Shown here piece by piece: positions 26,882 to 59,400 of a stretch of 64,000 nt of DNA. A program made the position numbers and the translations under genes. The stretch's first letter is position 1. Each line of letters starts with the position of its first letter. The notes below the pieces were generated by a model that made no database searches, had not been told where the DNA came from, and saw only the letters and a program-made list of their open reading frames with translations. The DNA comes from Albula goreensis (taxonomy: Eukaryota > Chordata > Actinopteri > Albuliformes > Albulidae), in NCBI GenBank assembly GCA_022829145.1, contig CM040751.1, forward strand, positions 930,001-994,000, read 5' to 3'.

Positions 26882-30035
<3,154 letters not shown>

Positions 30036-36302: not shown

Positions 36303-36525
36303 AAAACATTACATTACATTACTGTCATTTAGCTGACGCTTTCATCCAAAGTGACTTACAGTTGATTAGACTAACCAAGGGCCAATTTCCCTGGGAGCAA
36401 TGTGGGGTTGAGGGCCTTGCTCAGGGGCCCAACAGCAATGGTGTTCTTACTGTGGCTGGACTGGAACTTGAACCGTCAACCTCAGGGGTCCCAGTCATGT
36501 ACCTTAGCCACTAGGCTATAGGCCT
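36303..36525 (-). repeat. tRNA-derived SINE, same family as the 0.6 kb copy
   Basis: On the minus strand the A box is at 36508-36518 and the B box (GGTTCAAGTTCC) at 36463-36474. The body 'gagcaaggccctcaacccc' and tail 'gtaagtcactttggatgaaag' follow, ending in ATTACATTACATT-type short repeats. It is better preserved than the copy at 0.6 kb. Confidence 0.78.
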
Positions 36526-36595
36526 ACCCCACAATGTTCAGCTCCAGCTGGTGTGTGCTCTCATAAGAGATGGGGCAGTTACCAGTAAGTGGGTG

Positions 36596-37263
36596 CTACT
36601 CCTGAAGACAACCACTGTTATCTGTACTACGGAGCAGCTTTGAGGCAGTCCTGCTTCCATTGAAAACTTTTGGTAAGTCTGAACATTGAGTTGAGACACT
36701 TGCGTGCTTGGTGTACACCTTAATTTCCCTGATGAGTTTCTTTCCTTCCACTATGAGTAATTCATTGTTTTCCTTCCAGCACCCCACTTCCAATTCCAAA
36801 ATCTTCTCGGCTTTGCAGAGGTCGTTCATCCGTATTGTAAAATAAGTTTGTTGTCAGAAACTCTTGCCCATTTTCACATCTTGAAATTGTATCAACCATA
36901 CTAACATTAGTTGAAGATAAGGTGTTCACAGAAATATTATTTACCTCACACTGGTGTCCATCAGTCACATCTGCTGTTAGTTTTTATTTGATATCCTGGG
37001 AGAGGAAAAACGAATGCAACATATCTATATATTGCAAAGGCATCCAACATTGATCAAGCTTATGTTTCAGCATAACTAAGAGGAGCCATAGACGCATGTT
37101 GAGAAATGCAAGTTGTAAGTTCAGAAAATTCATGCTTAAATCGACAAAGCGCTACCTCAGGGAGCTTTTCCATGCTGTTCTGGATTTTCACAATCTGCTT
37201 CGAGGGGGAAGGTGCAAAGCTGGCAAGAACCAGAGCCACAAAGAAGAAAACCAAAACGTTAAT
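36596..37263 (-). pseudogene. Decayed IL-4/13-like cytokine gene
   Basis: Read on the minus strand. Exon 1 (37156-37263) encodes a hydrophobic signal peptide (NVLVFFFVALVLASFA) and the start of a helix, ending in phase 0 at CTCCCTGAG|GTAGCG. Exon 2 (36945-36995) is 51 bases, phase 0/0, close to the 48-base exon 2 of mammalian IL4. The distal coding part (to the stop at 36596) contains DLCKAEKILE, resembling the CRAxxxL helix of IL-4/13, then KKLIREIKVY and Cys residues spaced as in the last helix. Lesions: the expected start is ATT (37261-37263), with no ATG between the TATA box and it. Codon 4 of exon 2 is TAA. A one-base shift is needed near 36830 to join NLFYNTDE to DLCKAEK. It lies on the same strand just beyond the 3' end of rad50, as IL13/IL4 do in mammals. 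Another short-chain cytokine is possible. Confidence 0.42.
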
Positions 37264-37343
37264 TCTTCAGATGGGCAAATATGGCCACGGTTGACGGCTG
37301 TTGGCAAGTGATATCTGCAAGGTGAATACCTGAGCAAAAATCA

Positions 37344-37350
37344 ATTTATA
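37344..37350 (-). promoter_or_regulatory. TATA box of the IL-4/13-like gene
   Basis: TATAAAT on the minus strand, about 85 bases upstream of the presumed former start codon. This is a typical arrangement for short-chain cytokine promoters. Confidence 0.45.
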
Positions 37351-37769
37351 TCTTGGCGAAGGCTCTCTGACTCCTTCTATATTCTTCACAAATATCTATA
37401 AGTATCTGTAAATATCCGCTGACACAGATGCACTAGGGTGCTTGCAAATACGGATTTCAAAGTATAGAGTTTACAGGTTCAAGCAACTTAAATATGATGA
37501 CTATCAAAAGCTGCTTTTGTTTTAGTCTGCAATAATTCAATTTTTGGGGAAATTTGAATGGGTTATCTAACCTGGGTGTTTGTACATGTATATGTGTTAC
37601 ACAGTTATTTGAGGAAATTTGTAAATACATTATTTACATTAAATTATTCATATAAATAAGAGCAACATGGAAGGGCTTTACGTTGTTTCTATGTAAATGT
37701 TAGGATAATTTGTTTTTAGCTGAAAAGTCAGTGACTCAGTGTTAGTGATTTGAAGTATTTCCAAGTTTC

Positions 37770-38520
37770 AGGGCTGTGTTTGTAGATGACCACTGCCCTT
37801 ACCTGCTGTGATAACCTTTTGAGAGTCTGTGTGGGTTAGTGGGAAGTAATCAAAATCAGACCTGACGAAGATCCCAAGAGATTGAAAAGTTGTCCGTTCC
37901 ACACAATTAAGTTGAGCGCTGGAGTTCATGACTTTCGTGGGCTTCATCGTTTCGTTTTCGTCATGCAACAGAAAGCCAGACCACCGAGGCTGAGGTAGAC
38001 GGGTGCTAGAACTGAGTACAGTCAAAGTTATAGAAGGGAGATTAATCAAGAAGGTTAGTGAGGTTTGGGGGGTGGCTGTCATTGACTGTGTTACAGTGAT
38101 CTAGCATTAGCAACACTAATGTTTGTGCTAGCGAATGTGGTGGAGCAGGATTGGTAGAATCTGAATTTGGAAATCAAATCAAATAAAAACTACAGTGGCA
38201 TTACTCACCCAGGGGAATTTAGTCATACTTGTTTGACTGACCTATTTTGACAATGAAAAGTTGTGATGGAAACATACGGCGGTAAGCATGTTGCCTTTGT
38301 ATTCGCCTGAGGCCATTACCATCAGACGAACTTGAAACTAAAAGACTGGGGAGCAAAGTCAGCTGTGGTTGCATCACTACAGATACCTGCAGCATCATTA
38401 CAGATGCCGGATACCTCAGAAAACTCGGCAACAACGTGGGCCCAGTCATTCCGCTATCTTCAGAAATCCCCAGAGCCTTCTGATACAGCCAGCCTCTGTA
38501 AGATGTGTTTTATTTACGTT
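37770..38520 (-). other. Unrecognised coding-like exons
   Basis: The minus strand shows exon-like open blocks with plausible splice signals. One block at about 38409-38506 (GWLYQKALGISEDSG) lies between CTTACAG and GAG|GTATCC. A second at about 38250-38360 ends ATAG|GTCAGT. A third at about 37800-38020 (WSGFLLHDENETMKP, LNCVERTTFQSLGIF) ends GCAG|GTAAGG. Phases join between the first two, but the third joins only by a frame change. I do not recognise the product. It lies between the IL-4/13-like relic and rad50, so it could be part of another decayed immune gene or chance. Confidence 0.2.
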
Positions 38521-39666
38521 ATCATTGCAAAATAGACTTCTTTACTTTACATTTCATCTCCATACACTTCAGACAGAGAAAGCATGTTTTGTCAACAGAT
38601 GTTTTTACAGACTGCCCGAGAACAAGTACAGCTTATTTGCGGTCTGTATTTCAGATAACATAACATGACAATCACCATCTTCTGATTGGTGTTTTACTCA
38701 AAACTATGACAACGCACTTTTCTGAATTAAATTACCACACCAGCAGAAGGGAAGAAACCAAAGGTTGTTAACACACCATCAAACTCTATTATTATAAACA
38801 TTATTATATCGTTATAACCTTAATTACATTTGCTGACGTACCGGTAATAACACACAACCTTTTGGAAAGTTCAGTAGCGAAAATAACCACGTTTTAGAGG
38901 TAACAATTCACATAAAAATAATTCATCTGGGCTTTTATTTTGACAGATTTCATGGGCTTATTGCTGCTAAATGCTGCTGGCAGAATAGAGCTGTCCTTAT
39001 CCATCTTTATCCAGGATGGTTCAGTTTGGCGGCACATGTTGTCATAGGTCAGCTGCCACAGGAAGTACATTAAATTACATTAAATTAAAGAGACTTACAA
39101 GGCAAAGTGCATGTGAAAGGTACAAAAAAGATAATCCTAGAGAGAGGTAAAGTCCCAAGTGCCAAAGTTGACAGAATAGACCTGGACGCACCCTATAGAC
39201 TAATCTAGTAAAGGAGAAAATTAAATGAACAACAACCTAGGCTAAAGACAAACTACAGTTAAATGAGTACAGATAAGTGCAATAGTAAACAAAATGCAGC
39301 TGTGTTATTTTTTTAACACGTTAAATATTTCAAATTACTTACCACGTGAATTATTAATTAGCACGTTAATTTTTACAGCACTAGTTAAAGAAAACATTAT
39401 ATCTTACTGAAACCAAGATGTCTGCATAATATCTGAATGATACTAAAGCGACCTGCTATGTCAAAGATTTTAGAACAACGGCCAGTCTTCCTTAGTCGAC
39501 ATGCTGTATCTTGCTTATGTTCCACTATCTTTACTTATGCATATGTTTCGCGCATTTAGATTTCTGAGTTAATACTCATGCACATGCGTGGTACTGTCCT
39601 GGGAGCGTTTTAGCATGTTGACTCTGCAGCACTATCCAATTGGAACATGTGGTGAGGCCTAGTTTG

Positions 39667-40653
39667 TCAGTGAAGGAAGGAAGGGGGCGATGACACGCTG
39701 CACTTGGTGATCTCAGAGCACTGGTCAACATTCTTCTTGATCCTGTAGAAATGCTCCACGTAGCTGGAGCGTCCCAGGAGCTCCACAAAGTCCTCGTCAT
39801 GGGTGATGACGAGCAGCTGGAAGTTACGCTGGAGGGAGCGACTCTTGACGATCCTGTGCGAGACACACGTTAAAGTCACAGGAAAGATTATTGGCGCTTC
39901 CCAACAAAAACTACACGTTTGCAGATGGTCCTCGTTAAATGGTAAATTCAAGACGATTTGTTCTGAAAATTCAACATTAAGACAGGAAAAGTTGTTTCCT
40001 TTTGTGCGGAGAGTTACTCTATTCACCCAGCAGACAAATGAAATCAAGCTTTTCCTACTACAGCCATTAGATTTGGTGCAAATCAACATTTCAGACATAT
40101 ATACTCCTCCTCTAAGCATCTCTGTACTTACTCCACAAGGGCATGGGCCAAGGACTCTATGTTTTCTTGGTCCAGGTTGGTGTTGGGTTCGTCCAGGGCT
40201 AGAATACCACAGGTCAGGCAGAAGGCCTCTGCTAAGGCCAGGCGAATGATGAGGGAGGCCAGGACCTGGGGAACACAGAAGCTGCATTCTCAATGGCTGC
40301 GTTGAGCGCGCATGGTCTGAAACTAAAATGGCTGGACACTGCGGTAATTTCGGCTCAGCTGTTCCACAGGTCAATGTACATTTCCATAAACAGTGACAGC
40401 ATGACACCTAACACACTCCCGATACATGAAAATAAGAGATTTCCATCGCATTGGTACGTACACTAACAGAACTATCGCAGACACAGCCTCATTCTGGGGA
40501 CAGACATTACCTTCTGTCCTGCACTACAGCGCCCCCTCATGTCCAACGCCATATTGCCGTTCACCATCACCACGCGGTAGTTGTACATCCTCGTCTTCGC
40601 ACCAGCCAAGGCACTCTCGTCCACGTCGGAGCGGATCTCCACGTATTCTATGT
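39667..40653 (-). pseudogene. rad50: rad50 C-terminal ATPase lobe exons, still open
   Basis: Three exons (40511-40653, 40132-40265, 39667-39853) with intact phases and splice sites encode the ABC signature region ([10 protein letters not shown]), Walker B and D-loop ([12 protein letters not shown]) and the His switch ([10 protein letters not shown]). The D-loop reads PNTNLD, where vertebrate RAD50 has PTTNLD. They are separated from any intact N-terminal lobe, so no working ATPase is expected unless a truncated transcript is made. Confidence 0.8.
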
Positions 40654-41799
40654 CTAAGAGGGTGGACAGTGTGAAGGGGACCGTCAATATATACGAGCAA
40701 CCAGAATTTTTGGCAAGAGACATTGACAATCGCAGACGTAGGGCTCAGCTCTTCAGACTGTCTTGTTTCAAACTGAGGTTGTGGTATTCTGCAGTTTTGG
40801 TTAGGTTAAAGGCCATATTATTTATGTATTGTTTGTTCTCATAATTTGTATATCAGCTCAGGTTAGCATTGTTAGCCTGCAGCAGTACTTCAGTGATCAT
40901 ACATGCTCACTAGCTGGTCAGGTAATTTTGTCTGCCAGTATTGCTCATATCAATCAGATGAAGGCAACAATACAAGTGGATACAAGTGTCTTTATGATGT
41001 AATGTAACAAAACTTTGGCTCTCAGCAACAGTACTTTGATGTAACAACCATGCTAAATACAGTGAATGTATCATAATGACTGCAGCCTGTCATGATAAAA
41101 TATCTGCATAAGCCATTTTGAGATTTGAGGATTTGAAACCTTGTCCTCTGTAGGTGCTGTGCCACAGGTCACGGATAATCTTATTGATCTCCTCCATTTT
41201 GTGCTGTGAAACTTCATTATGGTTCTATGGAGGAAATGGACAACAACTGAGAACAATCAAAAACAACACAACTGTACATATTCTACCCTAATATTACACA
41301 CTGGCAAGGTATTGCCATTTCGGCTATTGTTCTGAAGTGCAAATGATGTTGGATAATGAGATATTTTATATATACAGGGCAAGATGAGCAGGGTGGCACT
41401 GAATAAGGAACTGAGAGGAGAACACAGTAAATCTGCACTTCTGCTGACTGTGGGCTTTATTAATGGATTAGCCTCAGTTCTGGTTAGCATAGTTAGCATA
41501 GGTAACTTGAATTCATACAGTGATGTTTTTTTATTGGAATGCCGTTGGCCAGCTCTAGCGCTATTACCCATATGAATCAAGTTGAATACATTTAATGTTC
41601 GCCCACACAGACTGCAAACCGCTCTCGATAAGAGCATCTGCTAAGTGACTGTGATGTAATTTAATGCCTACTAGTAAAGTGCAGCAAAGACTCATTAAGT
41701 CATATTTTAAATCGCTGCTAAAAATGACATTCGGGCACATGCCCGAATCCGTGCAAGACACTGAGCATGTCGGAAACTATGCAAACAGATCTGCAAATG

Positions 41800-42900
41800 T
41801 GCAACTGTGAATAAAGAAGTGAGGAAGATGCTATGTAAAAGATAAAGTCATTGGCCTCCACCAATTAAAACCACACTTAAGTAACAGACTGTGTAAGTAA
41901 GTGATAAGAACTGACAGGTTTTTGCTGAGCAGAAAGGCATGATGGTTATCACCAAGATAAGAGCTTAGTCATAGCTTCCTGGCATTGTGAAAAACACATT
42001 AAATAATCTCCAGACTTGGACACTTATCCTTCAGATTTCACACAATTTACTGTAATAATAATACAAGTAACAGACTTTACACATTTTATTGGTAAAATGT
42101 TTTGTGTAGTAAATAAGTTAATAGATGCTTATGAGTGTATGGAAAATCTACTTTTGCCCTGAGTCTCTCTGATGAATAAGGTGACGTTCAGTAACAGATT
42201 TGTCATAATATTCTGTCAGTCTGTGTCATAACATTCACGGAACATGACAAATTTTCTGTGGGATGTCATACTTAGTCTGTAGAAAAATCTCAACAAGATT
42301 TTTCAAAATAAAGGAAAAGCTCAAAGAAATTCAACATTTATTTGAGCTCAACCAGATTTATCTCTGGTCCAAAAGTCCATCAGTGAATCGTTCATTTGAC
42401 CCAGAGTCATGTCACAACTGTGTCAGGTCAAAGTTCACTCTACAGGAGTCTGAACTGTAGCCGTTGTGGCCTTGGACTTGTATGAATCAACCGCGTGAAA
42501 ATACTTAATAACACACAAATGCATTTACGAACCATGGGTGAGCAACTATGTTATCTTTCCTACAGCTACTGTATGAAAATTTAAAAAAATGACAAACTAA
42601 AATCTTTAGTATAATTTCACAAATTATAGCACAACAAATTTTCAAATGAGAGAATACTTAAAAATAAATGAAACTAAAGCTTGGAAGAATACTGGAAATT
42701 TTAGACTGGGATTAACTCAAATGTTATCCTAATGGAAGTATTGAAATCAGTTTTACACTTTTCCATGAAGCTTGGCTATCGGTTGTGTATTAATTCATTA
42801 AAATAGACCACTTAATACAAATTTCAGCTTTTTTTTTTGGAAAAAAATGTAATTCTAACATCGGAAAAGACAAAGAGAGCCTTTGGGAACAATAGCTCTT
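41800..42900. other. rad50 intron interior, no gene seen
   Basis: AT-rich DNA without coding signal. A SINE-like tail ('gataagagcatctgctaagt') sits just before it at about 41620-41650. Confidence 0.5.
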
Positions 42901-43294
42901 CCGATGTTAGCGTCACCCACACGCTCTCACCCCCTGAAGGTTCACTGGTCGAGGGCCTGATGGTAGATGCCCAAATCCGTGTCGGCCAGTTCGGTGGTTC
43001 TCATGACAATCATCTTGAGGCGGTAGAGCTCTTCGGTCTTGCTGCACTGCTCCTCGAGCAGCTCTCCTCCTCAAAGCCTCTCTGCTGGCCCAATACATGC
43101 AAGTCCCAAGTCAAGACAGATATGTCCAAGACAAGTTGAAGTCCTTAACTTCACAATCATAAACAAGTCAATAAGTGGTCTTTACCAAATGTAATGCACT
43201 AGTATTATTTAGTATAATTAATTTTCACAAGTAATGGTAAATTGGTGTTCATCCCTGTTTAGACAAACTATAACTCAATGGAAATATCTGGGTA

Positions 43295-43430
43295 CAGGTT
43301 GAGCATCCCTAATCCGAAAGGAAATTTCCAAAACACTGACATATGACATATGCAACGTATGACCATCTGTACATACCACTAAAAAAAATGTCTGGTCCCC
43401 AGGCATTTTGGATAAAGGATACTTAACCTG
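43295..43430. mobile_element. Short inverted-repeat element (Tigger-type MITE)
   Basis: Ends 'caggttgagcatccctaatc' and, inverted, 'caggttaagtatcctttatc' form an imperfect terminal repeat about 136 bp apart, with TA at 43293-43294. There is no coding content. Confidence 0.55.
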
Positions 43431-44509
43431 TGGTAGCCTATTGTGTGGGAAGTAGGGGTGCAGGGAAAACAATGCAGTTCGGAATTATTTTTTTCATTGC
43501 ATTTCGTATGACTTACGTTTGTGATGTTTTTTTGGTTTTTTTGGTTGTGATTGTGTTGTGCTGCTGTGTCAAAACTAAAAACATTTAAATACATGTAATG
43601 TATGTAAATTCAGTTTATGTGTTTTGAAGAGATTTTGACTGAAATATGGTCTTGAGGTGAAAACATATACTAATGTTTCTAAATGTGAAAAGAAAACAGC
43701 ACCCCCTCCCATTCACAGTATTTAATAACAATACATTCCAGTATCAAAATGCAATATCCATAAAATTATTTCACTGTTGCCAAGGACCATGATAAATCCT
43801 CATCACAAGGTTCTTGGCAATTTCTACATGTACAAATAATTAAATGAATACAGAAAAGTAAGACAGAACTACACCTCTGGAGGAGGGGCGTTTATGGAGA
43901 CTTGAGAGGGGTGAGAAACAGCCAGTCAGCGGGCCAGTTGTTTGACACCAAAATTGACTGCCCAAATTCCAGAACTTCAGCGCAGGAATTTCAATGCGAG
44001 AATGTGAGAAGTGACAGTCATAGCACATTTGTTAGGCGTAAAGTAAGAAAATCCTGGTGTATTGATTACTTAAAATGTTTGGTTCCGTTCAGAAAGACTG
44101 CGTGGGCTCTTGCATGTACATGCACAATTCATTTCATGCGAAACAGTTCGATTGCAGCTAGATAAGCCCAGCCACAACTGAGAAGGTTGCTCATTTCTAG
44201 CTAATTAGTAGGCCGAGCGTTAGCTGTTCAAGCGCTGTTGTACAACGTTCAGGAATTATAGGCTTTTAGGGTATTAACATATAAGAGGACAGGGCTAAGC
44301 ATTATTTGAAATGTTTAATATAAAAATGATTAGATAATTAGATAAAATTAAATAATTTATGAGGTTAAGTCATTATGGACATGATTTTAAGAACACATAC
44401 AGCCTTCAAATGACTGATTCTTGCAGGTAATAGCATTTGTTTCGTATTTATGGTATATTTATAGTATTCCAAAGAGTTTTTAATGTAGACATTTTAACAG
44501 GTGTGACAT

Positions 44510-45132
44510 GGGGTCGGGTGTTGGCACGGGAGAGCCTCCCACGCTTCAGGGAATCGGTGGAGGAGCAGCTGGGATCAGCACCACAACCCCCTGGACAGCG
44601 TCAGGACCAGTGAGAGCCGCTCTCAACAAGGCAATCAGTTCCGGTGAGGAATCCAAGCTCCTCAGCTGCGGCTGCTCTCGATCACAGACAAAGTCCTACA
44701 GAGCCCTCTCAGCCTGACTGCCTACCAGCAGAGACACACTAACCGCTCTTGGTGTTTTCCCTCTTTTCATAGATTCCGGGTAGGAGCTGAATGCTTCCAG
44801 GAGATCATGGCTTGCCAGTACCCGATCCATCCTCCTGTTCGACCTGGTGGAAAGCATCCCAGCCTGTGTTGCCGTCTCACCTGCCTTACCTTTGGTTCTT
44901 CTGGCTAAATGGGTTTTTTTTGCATTATATTTTTCTTTTGTTTTCATTTTTATAAAAAGCACCGTGTACTGGTCCTTGGCTTAGCGGGATGGCTAACCCG
45001 CTATCATTTCCTTGTGTGTTGTGCTGGACTTTAATTTGTGTTAACAAAATTGCTACGGCCACAGTTTTCCTGGCAACTGTGTTCTCCGTTTGGTACTTCT
45101 GCCGCCCACCTACACCGACCATCCCCTCCTCT
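44510..45132. other. Unidentified segment between 12-bp direct repeats
   Basis: CAGGTGTGACAT occurs at 44498-44509 and again at 45133-45144, bracketing about 620 bp of more GC-rich DNA inside a rad50 intron. The insert opens with a small frame (44508-44717) that I do not recognise, and has no A tail and no obvious inverted termini. The direct repeats suggest an insertion with target duplication, but its class is unclear. Confidence 0.3.
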
Positions 45133-45594
45133 CAGGTGTGACATCATCTTGACATCATCAGCCCCAGGACAAAAACATTTTAATACTGCATGTAAATGAA
45201 AGGAAAACCTTCCTTTTCAGAGTGAACAAAGCGTGTCACAATCAGTATTTAACCACCACACAGCTGATGGCGCTTCAGATCCGCCATCTTTGTCTCCTTA
45301 TTCCTTTACAGTCTGCATGTCATGGATGACGACCTGCAGCTCAGCCTCCAAGGGGAAGGTGTGCCAGCACACGGAGCAGCAGGGCTCACCTCCTCCGTCA
45401 GCTGGCTGATGAACTGGGTGTACACCGCCGTGGGCCCCAGCCAGCCTCGCTACCCATGAAGGAGTGAATGAACACAGTCATACAAACTGAGCGTGGTCAG
45501 AGAGAGAACACAGTCTCCAAAAACCAAGCATTATTTGAAATAAAACAGTTACACAAACCAAGCATGGCCAGAGAGAGAATACAGTCTCTCACAA

Positions 45595-45629
<35 letters not shown>

Positions 45630-48272
45630 AAACACGATCACAGTGAGAACACACAGACTTTCAATCAACCAAAGCAACTTTCCAGTCTAATGGGCAAAAT
45701 ATGACTGTCAGAGATGACTGAAGAAAAATGACTGATTACAGATCTTCCAGCGGTGATGAGCAGGCATGAATGCTTGGTGACTGAAGCAAAGGTTTAAAAG
45801 CACGAGCATCACTGACGATATTACTGCCATTTAGGTCACACAATATATTCTTTTGTAAGACAGCGCCCTCCAATGTCTAAATGTGGAAGTGCAGTTGCTC
45901 CAGTTGTACATAATTTCACAACCCTCTGCTTGGAGCTCTTCTCCAGGTCCTCCTGCAGCTTGCCGAGAGCTGCCTGGAGGTCCTGGCTGCCGCAGACATT
46001 GAGGAGCTTCTCCAGCTGCTCCTCCTTCCGTTTGATCTCTGCACAGCAGCGGCTCTCATTCCGCTCACCTAAGGCCAGGTCCTCCCTGAAATCATACACA
46101 GAGAAAGCAGGTAAATACAGCAGACTGAAATTACGCAAAGAGACCAGATTTAGAACTGATGGAAAACTGATTCTTACAACAACCAAGAGGAAATAAAACA
46201 TAAAACCACAAGACTCTTACTACAGTCAGACTGCAAGCGAATTAATACACCTGATCTTTACTGCAAACAAAGGCAAAGTGAAGACAAATACACTTGATCT
46301 GACCTGAAATTATACACTTACAGCAAGCAAATGCACCGGATCATTACTGAAATTCAACACAAAGCAGTTAATTGCACAAGTCCTTACTGAAATGTTCCAC
46401 AAAAAGACAATCCTAGTCTCAAATATATTGACAGGCTAGAGGATATAATGGGACACTTCTAATTTGCATGAAATTGGGAGTTAAAATCGATTTTAGAAAA
46501 TTACTGCCCAACACAAACACAATTGTTACGTTAACATCCGTCCAAGAAGCAAGGGTTCCTTATTTAGGAGAACAATGAAAAATGCGCAGGTAATAATAAA
46601 CCATGAATAAACTGATATACTTCCATAGCTGTATGTGCATTTATATATGCGCTGCAGATGGCAAGATTTTGTACAATAATAGAAGAAAAACACATGCATG
46701 TCCTGTACGCAACTGGCCACCGGAGGGCCAAAACAAGCATAAATGCGAGTGAAATCTGATGTGAGTAGTAACATGGTCACCTGAGCTTGTACAGCTCGTC
46801 TCTGGTGGAGTTGACCTCCCGGTTCTTGCTGTAGATCCAGTCCTCCAGCTGTCGTTTGTTTGGGAAGTGGCCTATCAAAGACGTCAGCACCGCGTTGTGC
46901 CCGGACTTGATTTTCCGCACTTGTTCTTCCTTATCCATCTGGTCCATGGGGAATAAAAAACGGCTTACATGAACACGTGGAAAAGAAATATGCCTTCGCC
47001 TTTTTTCGCAAACTGTACCGGGAACAGTCCCGCGGTAGCTTTCAAACCAAAGAATAAGAGATACGATTAGTCTTTCAAGGAAAAGATGAAGGTTCTTTGC
47101 CAAAGAAACTAACTAAACTCTTGTTCAGGCTCAAGGGGGGGGGGAGGTAAGTGTCACATTTTCAAAGAAAGGCAGACATTTCTGTAGCTGTAGGTGCACC
47201 ATTGTTCCAAGGTAGGTTGCCATAGGCTTCAAGCTGTGGCCCTCAGTGCCACAAGAGAAACAATTTGATAAACTGGAATAAGGACCAGGATCCTGGGGGG
47301 GGGGAGAAGTACCTAATACACATTTGTAGTGGAGCTCCTACCTTGTCCTTCTTCAGCATGTCCATCTCCGTGCAAGATTTGGTGTGAGCATTCAGCACCT
47401 CCATCTCCTGGTCCAGCTTGTGATGAGCCCCGTCCAGCTCCGCCTTCTCCCGCTGGAGCTCCTGCAGCTCCGCCTTCAGCCCATCTACGGTGGAGTTCTG
47501 CACTGTCCAGCTCCCTCTCCTGCCGTGCGCACATACAGAGAGAGAGTTTTAACAGCCTTTCATTTTTTTCTTTAACTCCGCCAAGCAAACTGAGGACACC
47601 ACACACACAAATACAAAAAGTATAAAGTAAATAACTACACCCAGAGATCATGGATTGCAACATGGAACACCGCCATAAAAATGAAATAAACACTGATAAC
47701 AGTCAATACATCCAGTTCAGATCAGACAGAGAAAGAGAGAGAGGTGGGCACTGGGTCCATTGGGAAACCTGCAATAAGTACAGTTTAGAGGACTGCCCTC
47801 CTGGGGGCGCTAGCGAGCAGCTCACCGCTTTGGTCAGCTACTGCTCCAGCTCCTGGCCCGGATTTCATCTATGTTGTGCTGCGTCATCACTTCCTTTTCT
47901 TGCATGCCTCTCTGAGATTAAAATGGAGAGCAACACACTTAAATCATAGTGCAATCAACAAGGGTCTCCAGGCAGGGGAACTGGAGAACTTAAATGACAC
48001 TGACAAAAAAGGATGAGAAAACTGAAGGGAAGTTTTGCCCTTCATTATCCTCAGTGTTGTATCATTTATATCATTACTGAAAGTCACAGCAGACCAGAGT
48101 TCATCCATTCTCGAGAGAATCATCCCTCAAAAACCAATTAACACCACTGACTACACAATTAATTCACCTCACCTTGTTTTTAGGGCATAAAAAGTAAGGG
48201 ATTGGATTTTGAGGTAAAAGCAACAACCTGCATAATCTCCACGCAGGTCTCATTGACCATACAGTAGACCCT

Positions 48273-48877
48273 TTATTTTAGATAGGGGAAGAGGCCATAA
48301 TTGTCAGCTATACTCTCACATGCACTATCAAACCCTCTCTCGCGAACCCTCACTCTTATAGTGTGAAGACCCTCTGTCGTCTGACGTCGTCTAATCGGGT
48401 CAAGCCCTTGAAGACAGTGTCTGACACAGCAACACTGTATGCAAATGCTGGTTGCTCGTAGGCTTCCCAGAACATAGCGTTCTCCGGCATTTAGGGCATT
48501 CCCTAGTATCTCAGCTACCAGGTTGTTCAATGCCTCAAGATGTAAACTCACAGATGTGCGTCAGCTGATTCCGAAACATGAAGCAATCAACTGCAAATTA
48601 ATTCCGAGAGACTCACATTGAGCAATGTGATCGTATGATACATCGTATCGAGGTGGACCAACATATCCATTCCTAATTGTCGGAGGGATGGAGGAAACCA
48701 GGAGTTTGAAATAATCTTAAGGAAAAAAGAAATAGTCCTGGTGTGGTCTTCAATGTCCCAGTACTGTCTTTCCAAAGCCATGCAGTCTGATCCCAAGCTA
48801 TCTGACTGCCTATGAATATCTTGAAGACATTGTAAGGCATTGTGAAAAAATGTAAACACATCTTCATTTCCCTTCAC
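48273..48877 (-). pseudogene. Integrase-like transposon gene fragment
   Basis: Two adjacent minus-strand frames (48587-48877 and 48273-48551) read like the N-terminal part of the fish repeat proteins carrying an integrase core: a helical block with ALQCLQDIHRQSDSLG, then GERYVLGSLRATSICIQ, CVRHCLQGLDPIRRRQ. A stop separates the two, and the catalytic core that should follow is absent. The copy is broken and sits in a rad50 intron. Family assignment is from pattern memory only. Confidence 0.35.
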
Positions 48878-49061
48878 CTGAACTAGTCAACTAAGTTGCA
48901 AAACAAAAATAAATGTTTAAAGCATTCTTATTTCCACAAATAATCAAAATTGCCAATGCTATCTGTAGCAGATGTAGGTTAGGATATTCAAAAACTGAAC
49001 CGTGCTTGCATACTCTGTGAGTGAGCCAATGAGAAGTGTTCCAGCCACTCAAAAAATGCAA

Positions 49062-49480
49062 AGATCAAACTCTCTCTCACATACTATCAAACTCTCTCTC
49101 ATACACTATCAATCTGTGAGAGTGTTTGATAGCACGTGAGAGAGAATCTGATAGCTTGTGAGAGAGTTTGATAGCACGTGAGAGAGGGTTTGATAGCGCA
49201 TGTGAGTGAGTTTGATCGTGGGTGAGAGAGGGTTTGATAGCACATGTGAGTGAGTTTGATCGTGCGTGAGAGAGGGTTTGATAGCACATGTGAGTGAGTT
49301 TGATCGTGCGTGAGAGAGGGTTTGATAGCACATGTGAGTGAGTTTGATCATGCGTGAGAGAGGGTTTGATAGCACATGTGAGTGAGTTTGATCGTGCGTG
49401 AGAGAGGGTTTGATAGCGCATATGAGTGAGTTTGATCGTGTGTGTGAGAGAGGATTTGATAGTGCATGTCAGAGTACAGC
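49062..49480. repeat. 44-bp tandem array built of 22-bp half units
   Basis: About eight copies of 'tttgatagcacatgtgagtg' plus 'tttgatcgtgcgtgagagag' type half units run from 49113 to 49470. Two inverted copies sit at the left edge (49062-49112) and one more inverted copy lies 0.75 kb away at 48313-48345, so the integrase-like fragment is bracketed. Confidence 0.8.
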
Positions 49481-50945
49481 CTCTCATACAAGCAGCCTCC
49501 CATGAAAGTCATGACTCACCATCATGGCCTTAAAGTCCTCATATAGCTCCATATCCTAGACTGCAGCTTGCAATAGCTGAGCTTTGGGGCCCAGCTGGTA
49601 TGCTGTTCCCTGCTTTCCAACACTGTCCCTCACCAAGTTCAAAACTGTCTCTTTTTTCTGCTTGTGAGTATTTACAGAAAGAAGCAATTGTTCGGCCTGT
49701 TGCCTGAATAACACAGAAGTGTCAGCTCAGTCACACCTGTTGACCTTATCTAACAGTTGCAGAGTTTTCTGTGGTCGTATGATGGGCCTGGCCATACCTG
49801 CTCCATTTTCTCCTCCAGATCTCTGTTGTCCTCCTCAATCTGCTTCTTCCTGCTCTCTAGGGTGTTGATATCATTATCCATCTGCACCACTTTCTCCAGA
49901 CTGCCATCGATTTCCATTACACAGTCCTGAAATGAGTGGCAGCACAGCCTCATGGCTATGTGTCAAAGCAAGCATTTTCATGACAATAATATGTACATCT
50001 TATCAAAGTCAAATCGATATTGACATTTAAGTTTTTATGTTCAATACAGGTGGATTACTTTTGTCAATTAAGAGATAATGTGATACACAGTGATGGAAAG
50101 ATGCTATTTGCCAAAAAATGAATTAGTGATTCATTAGAATTAAAACAGGGTCATCAGAAACCTAACTTTGGATCTCCCATCTTCAAAATCAAGCATTTTC
50201 CATTGCAACGGCAATAAAGTCACCATGATAACTATTTGGGGTCACCACAGAAACGGGTGGCATTGACACACAGGAGCTACTCGTCATTGAAAGTGCCATG
50301 CAAGGCATGCAGCATAGTCGCAGTGGTCCACAGTAGCCATCCACTGTCCCCACAGTGTACAGTACCTGGTCACTATGGTAACTGTGTCTAATCCCTGATC
50401 ACCGTGGGGACCCGCCTCCATGATCACCATGCAGACTTTGGAAGTGTGAATTCAAGAAATGTAATACATTTTTCATATTTTATCATATATCATATTATTT
50501 CATTATATATTTTTATACTTTTAAATAAACTTTAAACCATTGCTTAGTGAAAAGGGCACTGCTGTGTGGGCAAGTTCCTCTTACATTTCCAAGAATTGAC
50601 CTAAGAGAAACTCTCGCCAACCAGGTTGGCCACAGTGACCCATGTATTGGTTACAGTGGGCTGACCGTTAGAAACCTAAAGAGATGAAACTGTAAACAAG
50701 TGTTTTACTGGAAAGGGTGCCATTTACTAGAAATGTGACAAGTCATTTACATGTTATAAGAACAAATAAAATGTAATTGGGTAATTTTTGCCATATAGGG
50801 AGTTGGCTTGGGATGCCACCGTAGATATGCCATTTCATGATAGGCTAACTAAATGCTGCAGGGCTGAGTTTGTTTGCTGTAATCTTGTGTCACCAATTGT
50901 CCGGGGAACCCCCAAACACACACAAGAGCAGCCTTTCCCACGCTT

Positions 50946-50998
<53 letters not shown>

Positions 50999-51929
50999 AG
51001 CCCGATGGTACGCACAGTGCGTACAGCCTTAAACCTGCAAGCGCCAATGAGTGGACCAACTCACTGAAAATGTGTTATTTTACATGTTCTTCCAAGAAAA
51101 TGAGCCAAGCCCAATGAGTCTCGGGTTGAAAAAATAACTCATTGCATCATTTTTCTTTTAGTAAAAACAAATTGGGCCCAGAACACCACACAAGGGTTAA
51201 GGTGACGCGCCAGTATTTTCCGCAAATACCGTCAATGTTTTACCTGTCGTGCATGTTGGGTGCACCTGACTGGGATTGCCTGACCTACCGTTTTGCCTGC
51301 ACCGTTCTACCAGTACAGTCAATGGAGTAAAGAACGTGATGGCTTGTTTGTCCTTTGCCTCTACTCCAAAGCTTCTCACTTCATGCTTACTCATGTTCTC
51401 AATTTTTGACATCTTGATCTTCTAAACATGAGTCGTTAATAAAACGTCACGTCAATTCCCAACTTGAGCAAGTGTGTAAAACAATTACAGCAATAGCAAC
51501 AACTACTGTAATAGACAGTATGTAATTTGCCTTTGCTGAGTGGCTACTTAGCGTGCATAGCCAGCGTGCAAATGACAAACGAGTTAAATAAATTACTTAC
51601 TGTTTTGCTCGCTAGCAATATGGTGAGCAGAGTATTTGTTAATCATACAACCTCATGCAACACTCTGTAATGTGGGTTTTCATTTTGCTTTGGTGTTGCT
51701 AATACTAATACAGCTACCGAGCTTGATTCCCATGCTGGTTAACAGAGCAGAAGGTAGCTAGGCACCGATAGCTTACAAGAAAGGCAACGTTACCGTATCT
51801 TTCTTAACTACTCTGATTTTATGGAGAAGCCAATCGAAGACCTCAAAAACTGACAGGTTTGATATGTCTTATGCTGTTTAGTTTATATTTGAGCATTATA
51901 ACAAAGTAAGACTTTACCCGCAGGTATTT

Positions 51930-52320
51930 GTTTCGAAAGTTGCTGAGTTCACCTGTTCTTCCCCTCTAACTCGTAACTACAGCTCTTATAGCTGTGACGT
52001 AACGTTGCATACAGTTGCGCAAACTTTTATTTTGTTGACATTTCAAGTAAACTTGACATTTCTGTTTGTTTTCAGCCCGCATGAAAGCACAGGAACATTG
52101 CATAGTAATAATAATGTTTCTGCATCACATGACAGCCACCCAGTCTCGACACCAGTTTTGTCAATCTTTGATACTGAGTAGGGGTAACAGTTAGTCTAAT
52201 TGTTGTATGACGCATTTCAGCGGCGATATCGAAGCAACAGACTGGTGGTGGATTTGGTTTCCATTTATTTCAGTTTCAAGTACCCACTAAAATAGTGGTT
52301 TAGTGATTAATTTAGGAGTA
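51930..52320. promoter_or_regulatory. Upstream region of rad50 pseudogene, possibly bidirectional
   Basis: Contains a CRE-like GTGACGTAAC at about 51995-52005 and pyrimidine-rich tracts. It lies between the rad50 start (51412, minus) and a small + strand frame at 52321. No TATA box is evident. Confidence 0.25.
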
Positions 52321-52391
52321 ATGTCTCACCAGAGTGGAAATATCTCATACCCAGGTATGAGCCTGGCAAGAGATGACAAATCTTCACGTTG
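52321..52391 (+). other. Possible first exon, unrecognised
   Basis: ATG at 52321 with 23 open codons (MSHQSGNISYPGM...) ending at a good donor, TTG|GTGAGT. The best downstream acceptor (TTTCTAG at 52654) is followed by a hydrophobic frame (PCMLISASLAVTVFSALENS), but direct joining creates TGA, so either the partner exon is elsewhere or the pair is broken. Product unknown. Confidence 0.2.
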
Positions 52392-54097
52392 GTGAGTTTT
52401 TAGTTGAAATGTCTGAGCATACATAGCGGAGAAACTGCTTTTGGTTTTGGTAATGCATCACCATACAAACATGAGTAAATTTAATCTTTAATTGATTCGT
52501 GATTTCATGTTAAATAATCTGAAATGAACGTATAATTTAATATTTCACAGGTTCTATTTTACTGAGAAATGCATACCAGCGTTAGACTAATACTGTAGTT
52601 AGAGAATATTTTTATTTTATTCATTTTATTTGTGTCCATTTTTATGGTTTCTAGATGGCCCTGTATGCTTATTTCTGCCTCTCTTGCTGTCACTGTATTC
52701 AGTGCTTTGGAGAATAGCCTTCTCCTTTACAAATATCCTGGAGTCAGCTAGCATGTAGGCAGATTCACTTGAAAGTGGATGCTCTTCAATTCCATCTTCA
52801 CCACGTTTTGCTCACTGAAAAATACGGTAATACACCTATAGACCTTGTCATCTGATGTTATATCAGATGAACACAGCCAACGAGAGTTTGCTCAGAGAGA
52901 AAAGTGTAGGAATTTGAACAGCCATTTGAACAGCCGTCTAACAATGCAAACCAATTGTACAGTATCAGAAAATGTACAGAAAGTGACAGAATCCTCATCT
53001 TTGGAGCTTGAGAGTTGCAGTTGTGTTTGGCTAGATGTGCATTCGACTTACCATCAGTGTTGAACCTGGCACAAAGCATTATGGGTAAGTCCCATAGATT
53101 GTCACCGTTTGAAACCATTTTTTAGAATTTCCAAAATAAACAACTCCGAGATACAAAAGCCATATAAATTTCAAGCACAGATGAAAGAAGGCAGCCCTTT
53201 CTGAGGAATGCAATAAATAGTTTTCAGATTGAATATAGACTTTTACTACCCATCACTAATACTTTCACTGACATGTCCATTTTTAAACCTACATCATTGT
53301 GCAACACCATTTGTAACTTACAAATGCAATACATGGCTTGACAACATCAAGATGGGTCCAAACTAATACGTTTCTTGGTAAATAACTTTCATTTTTTTCT
53401 TACACTACCACAAACACATTATTTCCTTTTCCCATTTCTACAGTGTAGAGCATTTTCTTTTCTGAAATGAGAGTGAAAAATGTATTTCTTTCAGTATCAC
53501 AAACTTCTCCTGTTTCTGCAGTATTCATAGTTCTGAGGTTCTACAGTATTTCATTCAGCTTAATGTCCATGATATACTATGAGAATATAGCATCACACAA
53601 AGTTAAATTAAGATAATGGTAAATGGGAAGGACAAAGAAAGTAACTGTTACCCTGCGCTGAATATAATTCTAATTACTTTTCACTTTATTTCAGGGCACA
53701 GAATAAGTAGAAAGTCACTGGGGGAGTTTTTAAATAGTTTTTGCAGGTTATGGTTATTTCATCTTTCAAAGATAAGCCTACTGTACTTAATATTCCATAT
53801 GTATTGATCTTCCCTTCAAATGATGACTTAAGTATTCAAGACCTTCATGGAAATCACAGTTATGATCTGTTAATAAAGATATGATTTACATTTATTAATC
53901 TAATTTGCACAAGGTGTGCATTATCAATGTATGATCTGATAATCTTGTGAATTGTCATATAGAAGTACTTTTTTAAGTTCCCTAGGTTACAGCTACCTCA
54001 TTGGCAAGTTTAACTCATACCCAACCTACAGACTTCCGGAATGTTCCTTGGCTACAGTCATAGCTACTACAAAGCATCTCTCACAGATTACAGAAGA

Positions 54098-56428
54098 ATG
54101 AAATATGTTGCGCTCATCCTTGTTCCATTTCGGCAGTGCAAGTGATTTCTTGATGAGATAATAGTAGACCTCCGTAACCTGTCAACGTATCAGAAGGATC
54201 TCAGCTTCAAATGTAGCACCATTGTTGCATTTCTAATCTGTCAAACGGTAAGGAGAGGAAGCAACACTCAGAGGTTTGACTCCGTGCTCATGTGCCATAT
54301 GTTTTCTCATTCCTTTCATCCATACAAATGTACAATAGAACACAAAAAATGCAGTAAAATACTAGTGCAATTTATATGATTTAAATATCAGATTAAAGTT
54401 TCCGGGAAAACATATTCTGTTGTGTAATAAAATATCAAAAGAAAGCATTATTAATACTTTCAATAATACTATTGTGTAAGGCCTATTTGTCAGTTGAATA
54501 GGGTTGTGGTTTTCATAATTGGTTCTGGTGCCCCACTATGTGTGCTGGTTTTTCCTGATGAGATTAAGGTACTTTCAGTGGCTAAGCTTGTTCAGTGCTG
54601 AGGCACATGTAAATTGCTAGCAATAACATTCCCCATACTGGGATTAAAAAGAAATAATTTGCGCTCACTGTGTTTTTCTTCCTTTGCGTGACTCCTATGG
54701 TACATACAAATGCTGAAGAATGTCCACTCAGCAGTAATGCACAAGTGTAAAAGTACATATTGAGGTTCCATTGAGGTGTGGTTGACAAAGTAAACATAAA
54801 CACCAATTGTACAATTGTACTGGCTTTAATACAATGCAGTGCTATTTTCTTCAAGGAAACAGATAATTGAATAAGGTCTTCAAAGAGTCTTTTTAGCAAG
54901 TGAGTCTTTTTTCAGCTGAACTTTTCCTGTACATCCTTCCACAGGCAGTGGAAACCTTTTACATGAAAAATCATGTAAGTTGTGCTCTGTCGTGTTAGAT
55001 ATTTTTCCCCTTTGTCTGGTGCTACTGTACATCTCTGTATACAACGGATTATTGCAGTATGAGCACTGGTGATTGAATTGTGTTTACCTTTAACAATTTT
55101 CATAAATCCCCCATTTGATGTTATTGGTTGTCTTACAAGGTAATATGCCAAGATTGTTGAATGAAATTTGAATGTCAGTTTTTCTGGAAATAGCAGAACT
55201 CTGTGATATCACTGTACAGAAAAAAATATTAAATCGTCTGTACCGCCTGCAGCTGTGTGCTAACTGAAGGGGGAATATTATCGTTGTTTTCCGGTATCAG
55301 TGGTTTGCTTAAATGTCAAGAGAAATTTGTTGTTATGGTTGGTTAAACAGATAGAAGGCTGAAAGTAAGGCACAATAATGCATGATGGATGACTGAACAA
55401 GAGAGCGTGCACAGAACAATGTATTCTGCAAAATAATCTTATTTATTGATAGAATTTAATAGTAGCGAGGGAACAACGCACAAACGCCTTCTTCACGCAA
55501 TTATGTACAATCACGGTACTCGTGATAATCATGATATTTGCTTCATCGTAATTTGAAATTGACTTGCTACATCAGTTATTTGACCGACTTCTACACGATG
55601 CTGCATCAGCAGGTAGCTAAGGTACAGTTGGTGAAAAGGAACAATTATAGTCTGTCATCAGACCTCTTCAGCCATTCCAGTACATATGTACACTACCTTG
55701 GAGCGAACATCTGAATAAAGAAAATAGCTGTGTGATCTAATGGGGTTTATTAGTTTTGGTGAAAATACCATGTATGAGATCTTTATTGATGACTATGAGT
55801 GAGGATCTCAGTTTAACATCTCACCCTAAAGATCGGACAGACAATACGAATACAAGAACAGGTTTTTTTACTATTGTTTTTTTGCATGAGCTCAGTTTAT
55901 CTCTAAATCATAGACTGCCAGTCATATTAATTGTATTGGTAAAGTTATATAAATGCTTAATGAATATGCCTTGTCAATATACTCAGAGCATTCATACAAC
56001 TTAAAGACTCATTATGTTTTAAAAGATAATAAAAACAACTATTGAGGGGATATTCCCCCTGAAAGCCTGTGTGCTACATTTCTTTAATTGTTTCTGTACC
56101 TTTCTTTGACAGTAATTGCTTGTATTGAACATAATTATGATTGTACATTGCAGAATTTCTTCTTTTTTTTACTTGTAACAAATTGGTAGATATCAAAAAA
56201 ATTCCATTCCTAAAATCATCTTCAAATATGACCATTCCAAAAAAAGTCACAGAAAAGCATTTTTTAAACATTTCATGTGAGCTAAATAAATGTTTTTTTT
56301 TCTCTCTTGTGTACAGGAAGAGGTTGAATGCCTTGAAAAAAAAGTTAAAAGAAAAGAACTGCAATAGAACAAAATCATCCAAGAAAGTCATTGCATACAC
56401 TCGATATTTCCAGAACAGTGTCCCATAA
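54098..56428 (+). pseudogene. Possible short-chain helical cytokine (IL-5-position), probably broken
   Basis: Exon 1 (54098-54247) starts ATGAAATATGTT, has a short hydrophobic leader, then FLDEIIVDLRNLSTYQKDL like a cytokine A helix, and ends in phase 0 at ACG|GTAAGG. Codon 16 is TGA. A 30-base phase 0/0 exon (54945-54974, AVETFYMKNH) follows between CCACAG and GTAAGT, similar to the short second exons of IL5. A helical block at 55220 (KKILNRLYRLQLCAN) ends in a stop. The last block (about 56318-56428) reads RLNALKKKLKEKNC and ends YFQNSVP. Position is head-to-head with the rad50 5' end, as IL5 is in mammals. Family and exon chain are inferred, and exon 3 is not secure. Confidence 0.3.
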
Positions 56429-56429
56429 T

Positions 56430-59400
56430 GTATGATTTTAAAATGATGTTTCATATTTATTGAAATATTTCTTTGTTACAATGTCATTGTGTTGACTTTT
56501 AAATGGTTAAATTGTAAAATATAAAACACTGGAAATGTATTTATACGTCTTTAGATGGCTGTTTGAATGTGATTGAAACCCTGGACCTTGAAAATGGTTT
56601 TTTAAGGGATTGACGGATTTTATTTTCCAGACAATTTAAGTTCCCACATTGACTCTTCTGTATGTTTTTAGCTATACACTCTTAGAAAAACAGGTTCAAT
56701 GAGGATTCCTTTTTTGTTCCGCTGGAGGAACACTTAAAGGTTCTTCTTCTATTTGGATATTGCCCAAGTGTTCTCTGTAGAACCTGTTTCTGAGGGTTAT
56801 ATATAAAAAAACGCCCCTCAAAGAAACCAGTATCTAAGAAGAATAGGGTTTTAGGGTTCCTCCAGCAGAACAAATGAAGAACCCTTATGGTGCTAGAAAG
56901 AACTTTTTTCTAAGAATGTACGTTATATCCTGTAGTTTGAAAAGGGTGTTGCGTGATTGATTCATGTCTGAAAGTTTAATTTCTGTGGAAATATTAGCAA
57001 TTGCACTGTAAATGTAAATATTCTGATTTCCTCTAACATGGTTCTCCACATGCCGTGACGTGCAGACAGTGCATACATGTTCTGACACACCTGCTTTTTA
57101 ATGAATTTTTCTCTATGTTAGATATGTTATCTGCCTTACAGATGCAAGAAGGCATCGAAGCAATGAAATAATACATATCAAATATTGCGAGGACAAAGGG
57201 AAGTGGTTAACAAGTCAAAATTATCTTAAATTTTAAATTTTGAATAGCAATTTCACTAATATTGTATTGCTGTTGATTTTATTATTTCATTATTTTGTCG
57301 CCGTGTGTGTGTGGAGGGGGAAGGGGAGCAAGGAAGCACATGGGAGAGCAGTAACTATAATGGAACAGCGTTACGGCAGGCCTGAGACTCTGGTCTAGCC
57401 TGTCAGCTGAGAGTCATGTCCGTCATCTATAATTCTTCCAGTCCTCTGTACCCTTCAGAGCCCTCTTCTCCTGCCACGTTTTATCTCCGCCACCATCTAG
57501 AGACCAGGCGCCAGCTGCTACGAGCCACCAGCCACCACCCGAATTCGATTTACTGGTAGCCCTAAATTTATATTGCCAACTTATGAAATTCATCAGGTTT
57601 GGGGGATATTTGCTTAGTATTGATTATGCGGGTGATTGATGGGACTGTCTCGCTGAGTCAGCCGTGGCACAGACGGCCCACAAGCGGGGGGCCTCGCTAC
57701 CCTCCGATGGACATCTCTCCGCAGCCGGTCCAGCGCCAGTCCGTGTGTTGTCCTTGCATCTTATGATTGTCCTTGTATGTCATCATGGGTTTGAAGTGGC
57801 AGCCAGCTTGCAGGGGATGGCGGTGGAGTGGCAGCTGTTTTTTTTTTCCCACTGGCTGTTTGACAACCCAAACCCCCCATCCCTACCTCAGCCATGAAGC
57901 GTTCCAGTGCCAAGCCACAAGAAGAAGCAGCTGCATAAGTGGGCAAGGAAAGAAGGCTCGTTTATACTTGGCATCCTGTTTTAGTGTGTTTGTGTGTTTG
58001 TATTCTACTGCTCTTTCCACAGGCAGCTCCTCTCCTTTCATCCAAACTCTCTCTTTCTCAGTTCCTCTTCTCCACACCCCTTACTGGCCTCCTCGGTGAA
58101 TATCCTGGCAGATATTCATGTGTTGTCTTGGCCTATCCTGAATGAGAGGGTACTCTTCTTCTTTGAAGTGTAATAAAGGAAGTACCTCATTAAGACGTTC
58201 AAAGGTCTACTGATTTGATTGCTTGGGAAAACCACAATCATTTGGTCCCCATGTCACATATTTCCTGGTCGCTTAGTGTGTGCCGCATGAAACTGAACGA
58301 TGCGCCTTTTCTGTTATTTGCATTCTACAAGCGGTCTGATATTTCTGTGTAAAATCTACACATGCAGATTCTCAACTTCTGCAGGACTTGCTTCCTGGGA
58401 TTCTTCTTCATAGCAAAATACTCCAAATTTTTTCCAAAAGTGGGTTGGTGGTATTAATCTCAATAGAGAGCATCTTGTATCTTAAATCCAAGGAACAGAG
58501 GTAAAGATGGAGAATTTTGTTCCTGGATATTTTATTGGATTCTTAATGCTATGTTCATGTTTGCACTTAATAATGTAATTATACACCAATTACTTATATG
58601 CCATTTAAAATGAAGATCAGACTACTATAAAATAATTAATTTAAGGACAAATTGCAATAAAAACAGTCTTCAACTGTGATTCATGGGCTTAGTAAATCAA
58701 TGTGAATGAGTGTCAGATCATGTAAATAATTGATCTGATTAAACCTTTATCATAGAGGTTATCCTGGGTCAATTAGCTCAAACGGATTAGAAAAGACTTT
58801 TTTTCATAGCCTATAAAAGGCCTAAACACGGCCTTGCGTTTAAGTTGGCCCTGTTCGCATATTCAAGCTACTAAACGGGCTAATCCAGTTATAGAGTGCA
58901 GAGCTAAAATATCTTAAACCACAGAGTTTCAGTTGTTTGCTGTTTGGATTCGAAGTGTTACTAGTACTGATTACCATGGTTAAAACCAACTATTATTTTG
59001 CCGTTCTCTGGGTACAGCTCTGTGTTTCACATTCGGGATTTACCTCTTCACTCTCCAAGATACACCCGAGCCTATTTTATCTTAAAAATGTAAGATACTG
59101 TTGTGAGAGCGTTTGCATCCCCTGACAACATAAGTAAAAGTAATTTTGAGGTAAACAAAATTTCAGATATAAAGACGAATGTTGTGTCGTTTCCCTTCCT
59201 TCCTGGCTCGAGAAAAATTGGACTCATTCATTTTGGTGCTTGGAAAGCCATTGCGCGCGTCCGTGAGTATATGCATTAGTGTCTCAAGCTCTTGGCAAAA
59301 CGCCTGGTGAGTCTCCGTCCAACACAGTGGCCTTTCAACTAAGGAATAAAGGCAACTATCAGCCTACCGATGCGTGGGCCACCTCCACTGTGTCCCCGTT

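Follow-up and report, generated by a model that had tools for sequence, protein, structure and literature searches.

The 64,000-nucleotide stretch analysed here (the window: contig CM040751.1, positions 930,001 to 994,000; part of contig C11 in the genome surveyed, 931,924,363 bases in 208 contigs) carries the remains of three genes arranged as in a T-helper 2 (TH2) cytokine locus: an IL-5-like gene, rad50 and an IL-4/13 gene. Minus-strand exons matching human RAD50 run in the correct order between 51412 (Met1) and 39670; much of the gene is missing and frameshifts are present. The IL-5-like remnant lies head-to-head with the rad50 5' end, the IL-4/13 remnant shares the minus strand with rad50 and lies past its 3' end, and all three genes carry disabling lesions relative to an intact locus on contig C2 of the same genome. 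The original prediction, made from the letters of the window, had described this order, the damage to all three members and a duplicate TH2 cytokine/RAD50 locus in decay, and each of these points was borne out by comparison with the C2 locus, which is the donor. Coordinates of the features are collected in Table 1.

Genome-wide, with 35 of 51 candidates scored, matches to RAD50 at E ≤ 0.001 were confined to two contigs, C2 with 23 and C11 with eight; the former make up a complete gene and the latter are those of the window. The C2 rad50 is intact (25 exons, residues 1-1312, no stop, no frameshift) and stands between intact IL-5-like and IL-4/13 genes, each of four exons with GT-AG introns in phase 0. 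A block of the window is colinear, in inverted orientation, with this locus (19,206 aligned columns in a blastn chain), spanning 41,866 bases on C2 and 25,903 in the window, and its introns and intergenic DNA still align in pieces 69-92% identical. Chance is excluded for rad50 because the best window exon reached an E-value of 5e-23, and for the block because of its colinear DNA homology to C2. A search for Pfam PF13558 was of no help in counting rad50 copies, as it gave no match in the fish genome (0/1) though 12 of 14 control genomes were positive. Beyond IL-4/13 on C2 lies a gene with POU and homeo domains, taken here to be POU4F3. A POU-domain gene beside RAD50 and IL-4/13A is also described for the published teleost locus A (PMC5440397; this and the other papers cited are drawn on from excerpts), and C2 is therefore regarded as the donor and old home of the locus and C11 as the landing site.

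Compared with the C2 copy, 12 of the 25 rad50 exons are represented in the window, exons 9, 13 and 21 only partly, and 13 are gone. The losses fall mainly in four large gaps, where 7,536, 2,366, 2,704 and 3,139 bases of C2 correspond to 761, 2, 8 and 357 bases of the window. Frame-changing insertions and deletions include a 5-nt deletion in the Walker A motif (exon 1) and others in exons 10, 13, 21 and 22. A misread intact gene was considered as an explanation and ruled out by the 13 absent exons and the frameshifts in others. An open reading frame near rad50 (48587-48886) had no match in PDB. A minisatellite array with 22-bp spacing occupies window 49113-49508, in an intron of the rad50 pseudogene.

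Table 1. Features located in the window, with strand and the changes seen at each.
Feature	Position	Strand	Lesions and remarks
Whole duplicated block	31101..57003	-	blastn chain colinear, inverted, versus C2:17936702-17978567
IL-4/13 pseudogene exon 1	37156..37263	-	ATG>ATT, 18-nt deletion; aligned with C2:17971471-17971596
IL-4/13 pseudogene exon 2 (51 nt)	36945..36995	-	CAA>TAA
IL-4/13 pseudogene exon 3	36704..36829	-	acceptor AG>GG, donor GT>GC
IL-4/13 pseudogene exon 4	36261..36573	-	acceptor and start deleted; split by SINE-like insertion ~36295-36536
rad50 pseudogene exon 1 (aa 1-43)	51289..51412	-	5-nt deletion in Walker A, frameshift
rad50 pseudogene exon 6 (aa 253-295)	49798..49926	-	
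rad50 pseudogene exon 9, exon start (aa 416-433)	47855..47911	-	middle deleted
rad50 pseudogene exon 10 (aa 485-545)	47342..47523	-	4-nt insertion, 5-nt deletion
rad50 pseudogene exon 11 (aa 546-597)	46783..46938	-	
rad50 pseudogene exon 12 (aa 598-656)	45923..46087	-	12-nt deletion
rad50 pseudogene exon 13 (zinc-hook exon), first part only	45310..45450	-	1-nt insertion, 1-nt deletion
rad50 pseudogene exon 21, last part only (aa 1073-1130)	42945..43099	-	19-nt deletion
rad50 pseudogene exon 22 (aa 1131-1158)	41141..41223	-	1-nt deletion
rad50 pseudogene exon 23 (aa 1159-1206)	40511..40654	-	
rad50 pseudogene exon 24, Walker B region	40131..40265	-	DEPNTNLDQ versus DEPTTNLDR in C2 and human
rad50 pseudogene exon 25 (aa 1252-1312)	39670..39852	-	
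IL-5-like pseudogene exon 1	54098..54208	+	5-nt and 1-nt deletions; splice donor GT lost
IL-5-like pseudogene exon 2	54945..54974	+	10-nt and 2-nt deletions
Deletion site of IL-5-like exon 3	55757..55761	+	907 nt in C2 versus 5 nt
IL-5-like pseudogene exon 4 remnant	56317..56414	+	10-nt insertion
Window-only stretch with Tc1-type transposon remnant	31377..32559	+	absent from C2; HTH_Tnp_Tc3_2
snrpa	26882..30032	+	intact neighbour at insertion site, outside block

The IL-4/13 gene of C2 (17971471-17972313) has exons of 126, 51, 126 and 114 coding bases. Fish IL-4/13 genes are published as having four coding exons separated by phase-0 introns (PMC4905449, PMC5440397). This structure is found both in the C2 gene and in an IL-4/13 gene on contig C6 described below, and shuffle tests against human IL-4 gave z of 4.1-5.1; the C2 protein alone had no IL-4 match in PDB or Pfam. 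The insertion in exon 4 of the window copy is about 242 nt long and resembles, by eye, a tRNA-type short interspersed element (SINE). No Pfam family was found in the six translated frames of window 35001-39600, which hold the IL-4/13 region. A plus-strand reading of the region, suggested by a helix-A-like stretch, was dropped, as C2 shows a clean gene on the minus strand. Within the exon-4 insertion, window 36389-36523 forms an inverted repeat pair with window 590-724, the two being 88% alike over 135 nt.

The IL-5-like gene of C2 (C2:17937869-17941037) lies head-to-head with the RAD50 5' end, has four phase-0 exons of 117, 42, 150 and 126 coding bases and a helix-A Glu, and shows by eye a signal-peptide-like start and a TATA-like box. 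In the window, the short-chain cytokine originally placed at 56141-56428 proved to cover the last exon, the first lying farther towards rad50 (Table 1). A search for exon 3 in the window scored 26 versus a maximum of 28 in 50 shuffles, no Pfam family was found in three translated frames of window 51401-60400, and the spotted gar protein IL-5famA matched the window at best with E 0.21, on the other strand. The window cytokine calls are without statistical support within the window alone and are carried by the comparison with C2. Pfam and PDB searches for the cytokines gave nothing significant (the top of one search consisted of chemokines and an unrelated protein, all with E ≥ 0.33), and the IL-5-like proteins had no IL-5 match in either database; gar IL-5famA, the published control, likewise matched no cytokine family in Pfam. 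The four-exon, phase-0 architecture taken by itself is weak evidence, since one of 20 control segments, none longer than 7 kb, held such a chain by chance.

Between the window and C2 copies, 13% of the aligned noncoding sites differ, with a Kimura two-parameter distance (K2P) of 0.149 over 15,290 bases (1,095 transitions, 960 transversions); fourfold sites give 0.169 (24/159), and the Nei-Gojobori method applied to 542 rad50 codons gives synonymous and nonsynonymous distances (dS, dN) of 0.225 and 0.077. At assumed rates of 1-4 substitutions per site per billion years, the noncoding divergence would correspond to an age between 74 and 19 million years. When the rad50 amino-acid changes are polarised with human as outgroup, 61 of the 65 that can be assigned fall on the window copy and four on C2, with 22 unassignable. 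Relative to the noncoding yardstick the amino-acid rate is 0.63-0.84 on C11 and 0.27-0.06 on C2, depending on how the 22 fall. Relaxed selection, for which the original prediction had proposed a check, is thus seen in rad50, the gene on which constraint was measured, beside the disabling lesions in all three genes; the C11 rad50 lost constraint early.

Such divergence bears on the age of the copy. The suggestion that the locus arose in the teleost genome duplication (third round, 3R) implies that the window holds the counterpart of the C2 locus from 3R, retained for some 300 million years and only now falling into decay. The gene order would fit, as would the retention of many 3R duplicates by the host, seen in its Hox runs on eight contigs (below), but the noncoding DNA still aligns, at the identities and K2P given above. 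The raw noncoding transversion fraction (960/15,290 = 0.063), a measure akin but not identical to the fourfold degenerate transversion distance (4dTv), lies far from the 4dTv of duplicate pairs in the excerpted text of PMC9730501, 0.317 in tarpon and 0.386 and 0.402 in eels, so that the window copy does not show 3R-age divergence by that comparison. A better candidate for the partner is present on C6. An origin of the window copy at 3R, which the original prediction had put forward as a possibility, is accordingly close to refuted and extremely improbable; it would need wholesale gene conversion to hide divergence of that age.

Errors of assembly or a mis-joined haplotype, another conceivable source of the lesions, have a negligible probability: in their favour, some of the lesions are 1-nt insertions or deletions, but the 13% noncoding difference, the multi-kilobase deletions, the copy-specific transposons and the clean sequence of the adjoining snrpa all speak against them. 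The transposons are a Tc1-type remnant with an HTH_Tnp_Tc3_2 domain in a 1,183-nt stretch of the window without C2 counterpart (Table 1), and a piggyBac-like open reading frame (DDE_Tnp_1_7) at C2:17974359-17975882, inside a 2,296-nt C2-only stretch that corresponds to just 2 nt of the window, near 34608; most simply, both postdate the duplication. A continued use of the broken block, as a TH2-type enhancer, a non-coding transcript or a short RAD50 C-terminal piece, could draw on the good preservation of rad50 exons 22-25 (87-95% nucleotide identity), but with substitutions in the Walker B region, a frameshift in exon 22 and near-neutral amino-acid change it is very improbable.

The window thus very probably holds a dead and fairly young copy of the C2 TH2 cytokine locus, in which the IL-5-like gene, RAD50 and IL-4/13 were all lost after copying to C11. 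About 42 kb of C2 holding the three genes would have been copied into C11 just beyond snrpa, most likely by interchromosomal segmental duplication; the three genes of the copy were then disabled by a number of independent point changes and deletions and by an insertion, leaving no normal product possible, and the donor stayed constrained and does the work. The donor, the colinearity, the lesions and the uneven distribution of change are observed; how and when the block was copied, and the present disuse of the copy, are inferred.

When 66 kb of C2 (C2:17925001-17991000, 467 bases unread) was compared with 103.6 kb of C11 (C11:910201-1013800), homology stopped at both edges of the block, 31101 and 57003, and only six short matches of 56-175 bp were found beyond them; within these stretches the flanking genes are unshared. 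In the comparison of flanking genes that had been proposed, the 19q13-like genes beside the locus mark the place where the copy landed and are not shared with the donor within the DNA compared. The statement that itpkc, actmap and snrpa next door are intact over about 3.9 kb holds for snrpa, which aligns with the human protein over 282 residues without stop or frameshift; itpkc and actmap were confirmed as present by domain matches only. On the other side of the block the nearest identified gene, about 12 kb away and to the right of the window, encodes a Notch-ligand N-terminal domain and is perhaps DLL3, which we take to be a 19q13 gene in human; a gene with an Ig domain lies to the left of the window. 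Exon 1 of itpkc (1,437 bases) has a second match of only 171 bp at 75% identity in the genome and thus no young second copy. A DNA search with snrpa (40 of 1,132 candidates scored) was uninformative on young duplicates, its other matches falling on an intron repeat. That repeat, at window 29057-29801, has dozens of matches genome-wide. Minisatellite arrays with 29- and 48-bp spacing lie at window 16806-17511 and 7947-8599, within the itpkc span.

A Hox13 search (150 of 267 candidates scored) found six loci of 78-93% identity, and runs of at least four homeobox matches were found on eight contigs (C3, C5, C6, C12, C14, C19, C20, C22), six of them with a Hox13-like gene; two further contigs had one or two weaker matches. 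This is the plain 3R teleost complement, as expected if all eight Hox clusters were kept. Zebrafish has seven Hox clusters, and because runs on eight contigs were found the host is taken as probably not a cyprinid. The eight runs would suit a fish of eel or arowana type, as the consulted excerpt of PMC4835728 gives eight clusters for both European eel and Asian arowana. A recent second copy of the locus would also result if this lineage had undergone a young whole-genome duplication or had rediploidised late, with the flanks rearranged locally. Such duplications are known in fish, and for eels a paper whose excerpted text also reports that no extra genome duplication was detected has suggested that some regions rediploidised late (PMC9730501); the end of homology on both sides within the compared sequence, the short second match of itpkc exon 1 and a plain 3R complement of six Hox13-like loci on eight Hox-bearing contigs argue against this account, which is quite improbable. 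A segmental duplication is favoured because the flanks are unmatched, itpkc exon 1 has no young copy and the Hox complement is plain, and the block looks, on these sequence comparisons, like such a duplication into a 19q13-like neighbourhood.

Several observations weigh against this account of a dead segmental copy. No premature stop in the C2 frame occurs among the 542 aligned gap-free rad50 codons, several surviving exons are still open, and the C11 amino-acid rate is slightly below the noncoding rate, so that the copy may have functioned for a while. Related genes beyond the 66 kb of C2 and 103.6 kb of C11 compared would make the duplication larger than segmental, and the genome was tested for other young duplicates through itpkc exon 1 only, the snrpa search being uninformative.

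Weak matches to the two C2 cytokine proteins (E 1.1 and 9.4) were found on C6, 34 kb apart and in mirror-image order. One is a complete four-exon IL-4/13 gene on the minus strand (15450991-15449772) and the other an IL-5-like gene on the plus strand with three exons at 15483423-15484162 and a candidate fourth; exons of both have GT-AG ends. The C2 and C6 IL-4/13 proteins resemble each other with z of 12 to 14, and the two IL-5-like proteins with z of 5.7 to 6.2, in both cases beyond all 1,000 shuffles. For the C6 IL-4/13 protein, IL-4 occupies the 15 best PDB rows, most of them human variants, with a best E of 0.013 that is suggestive only. In whole-protein comparisons, the C2 IL-5-like protein scored z 4.2 with human IL-5 and 1.6 to 2.4 with the IL-4 group, and the C6 protein 1.9-2.1 and -0.5 to 0.6, respectively. 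RAD50 had no match at E ≤ 0.001 on C6, and neither KIF3A nor another kinesin was found in C6:15435001-15449700, the stretch between the two C6 genes being unread and the C2 surroundings not having been searched for KIF3A; the label 'locus B' for C6 therefore rests on gene content and mirror-image order. C6 is likely the 3R partner of the C2 locus, having lost RAD50. It is probable that this early-branching teleost has two working TH2-type loci of 3R origin, C2 with RAD50 and C6 without, each keeping an IL-4/13 and an IL-5-family gene, with the block in the window as a third, dead copy.

The IL-5 identity is less secure by other measures. Exon by exon, the z of the C2 IL-5-like protein is ambiguous (3.2 with IL-4, 2.7 with IL-5), although the whole-protein shuffles favour IL-5, and it reaches 2.9 with the C6 IL-4/13 protein; exons 1-3 of the C6 IL-5-like gene score only 0.9 with human IL-5. 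Gar IL-5famA scored z 2.6 with C2, 0.9-1.0 with C6 and 0.7-0.9 with human IL-5.

The dead block offers a clean, datable case of a whole immune locus duplicated and then lost and is useful for gauging how fast cytokine genes become unrecognisable; its larger value lies in comparison with the intact C2 and C6 loci. If the reading of these is correct, loss of the IL-5 family did not happen at the base of the teleosts and cyprinids are not the sole teleosts with it, and the timing of the family's loss becomes testable in eels, tarpons and bonytongues. The IL-5-like gene beside RAD50, with its C6 partner, would then be a candidate ligand for the teleost common beta receptor chain.

The excerpted text of a 2015 review states that, outside the cyprinids, its authors could identify no teleost candidate for the IL-3/IL-5/GM-CSF family, and that the cyprinid candidates are linked to KIF3A (PMC4690019). 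No later report of the family in non-cyprinid teleosts was found in the literature searched, including the consulted parts of PMC9465101 and PMC7416321, which is no proof as most subscription journals lie outside its coverage. That survey, so far as its excerpted text goes, would be contradicted by an IL-5-family gene within the canonical TH2 locus of a probably non-cyprinid teleost.

In the spotted gar, the canonical TH2 locus links RAD50 with IL-4/13, an IL-5-family gene and KIF3A (PMC4690019, PMC4905449). C2 is alike in linking RAD50 with both cytokine families, RAD50 being flanked by the IL-5-like gene head-to-head on the 5' side, on the opposite strand, and by IL-4/13 on the 3' side, on the same strand, subject to the IL-5 identity, and the window shares this order in broken form; KIF3A was not found in the C6 stretch searched and was not looked for near C2. 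The window differs from gar in being dead and in a 19q13-like neighbourhood, and C2 and C6 in belonging to a teleost. Of the two published teleost loci, A comprises POU4F3, IL-4/13A and RAD50 and B comprises KIF3A and IL-4/13B (PMC5440397, PMC4905449). On C2, RAD50 and IL-4/13 are likewise joined by a POU-domain gene, and on C6 IL-4/13 stands without a RAD50 match; both additionally carry an IL-5-like gene. The closest parallel to the decay is the decayed IL-4/13A exon of salmonids (PMC4905449), likewise an IL-4/13A pseudogene after duplication of the locus; there a single exon decayed after a genome duplication, whereas in the window three genes did so, apparently after a segmental duplication.

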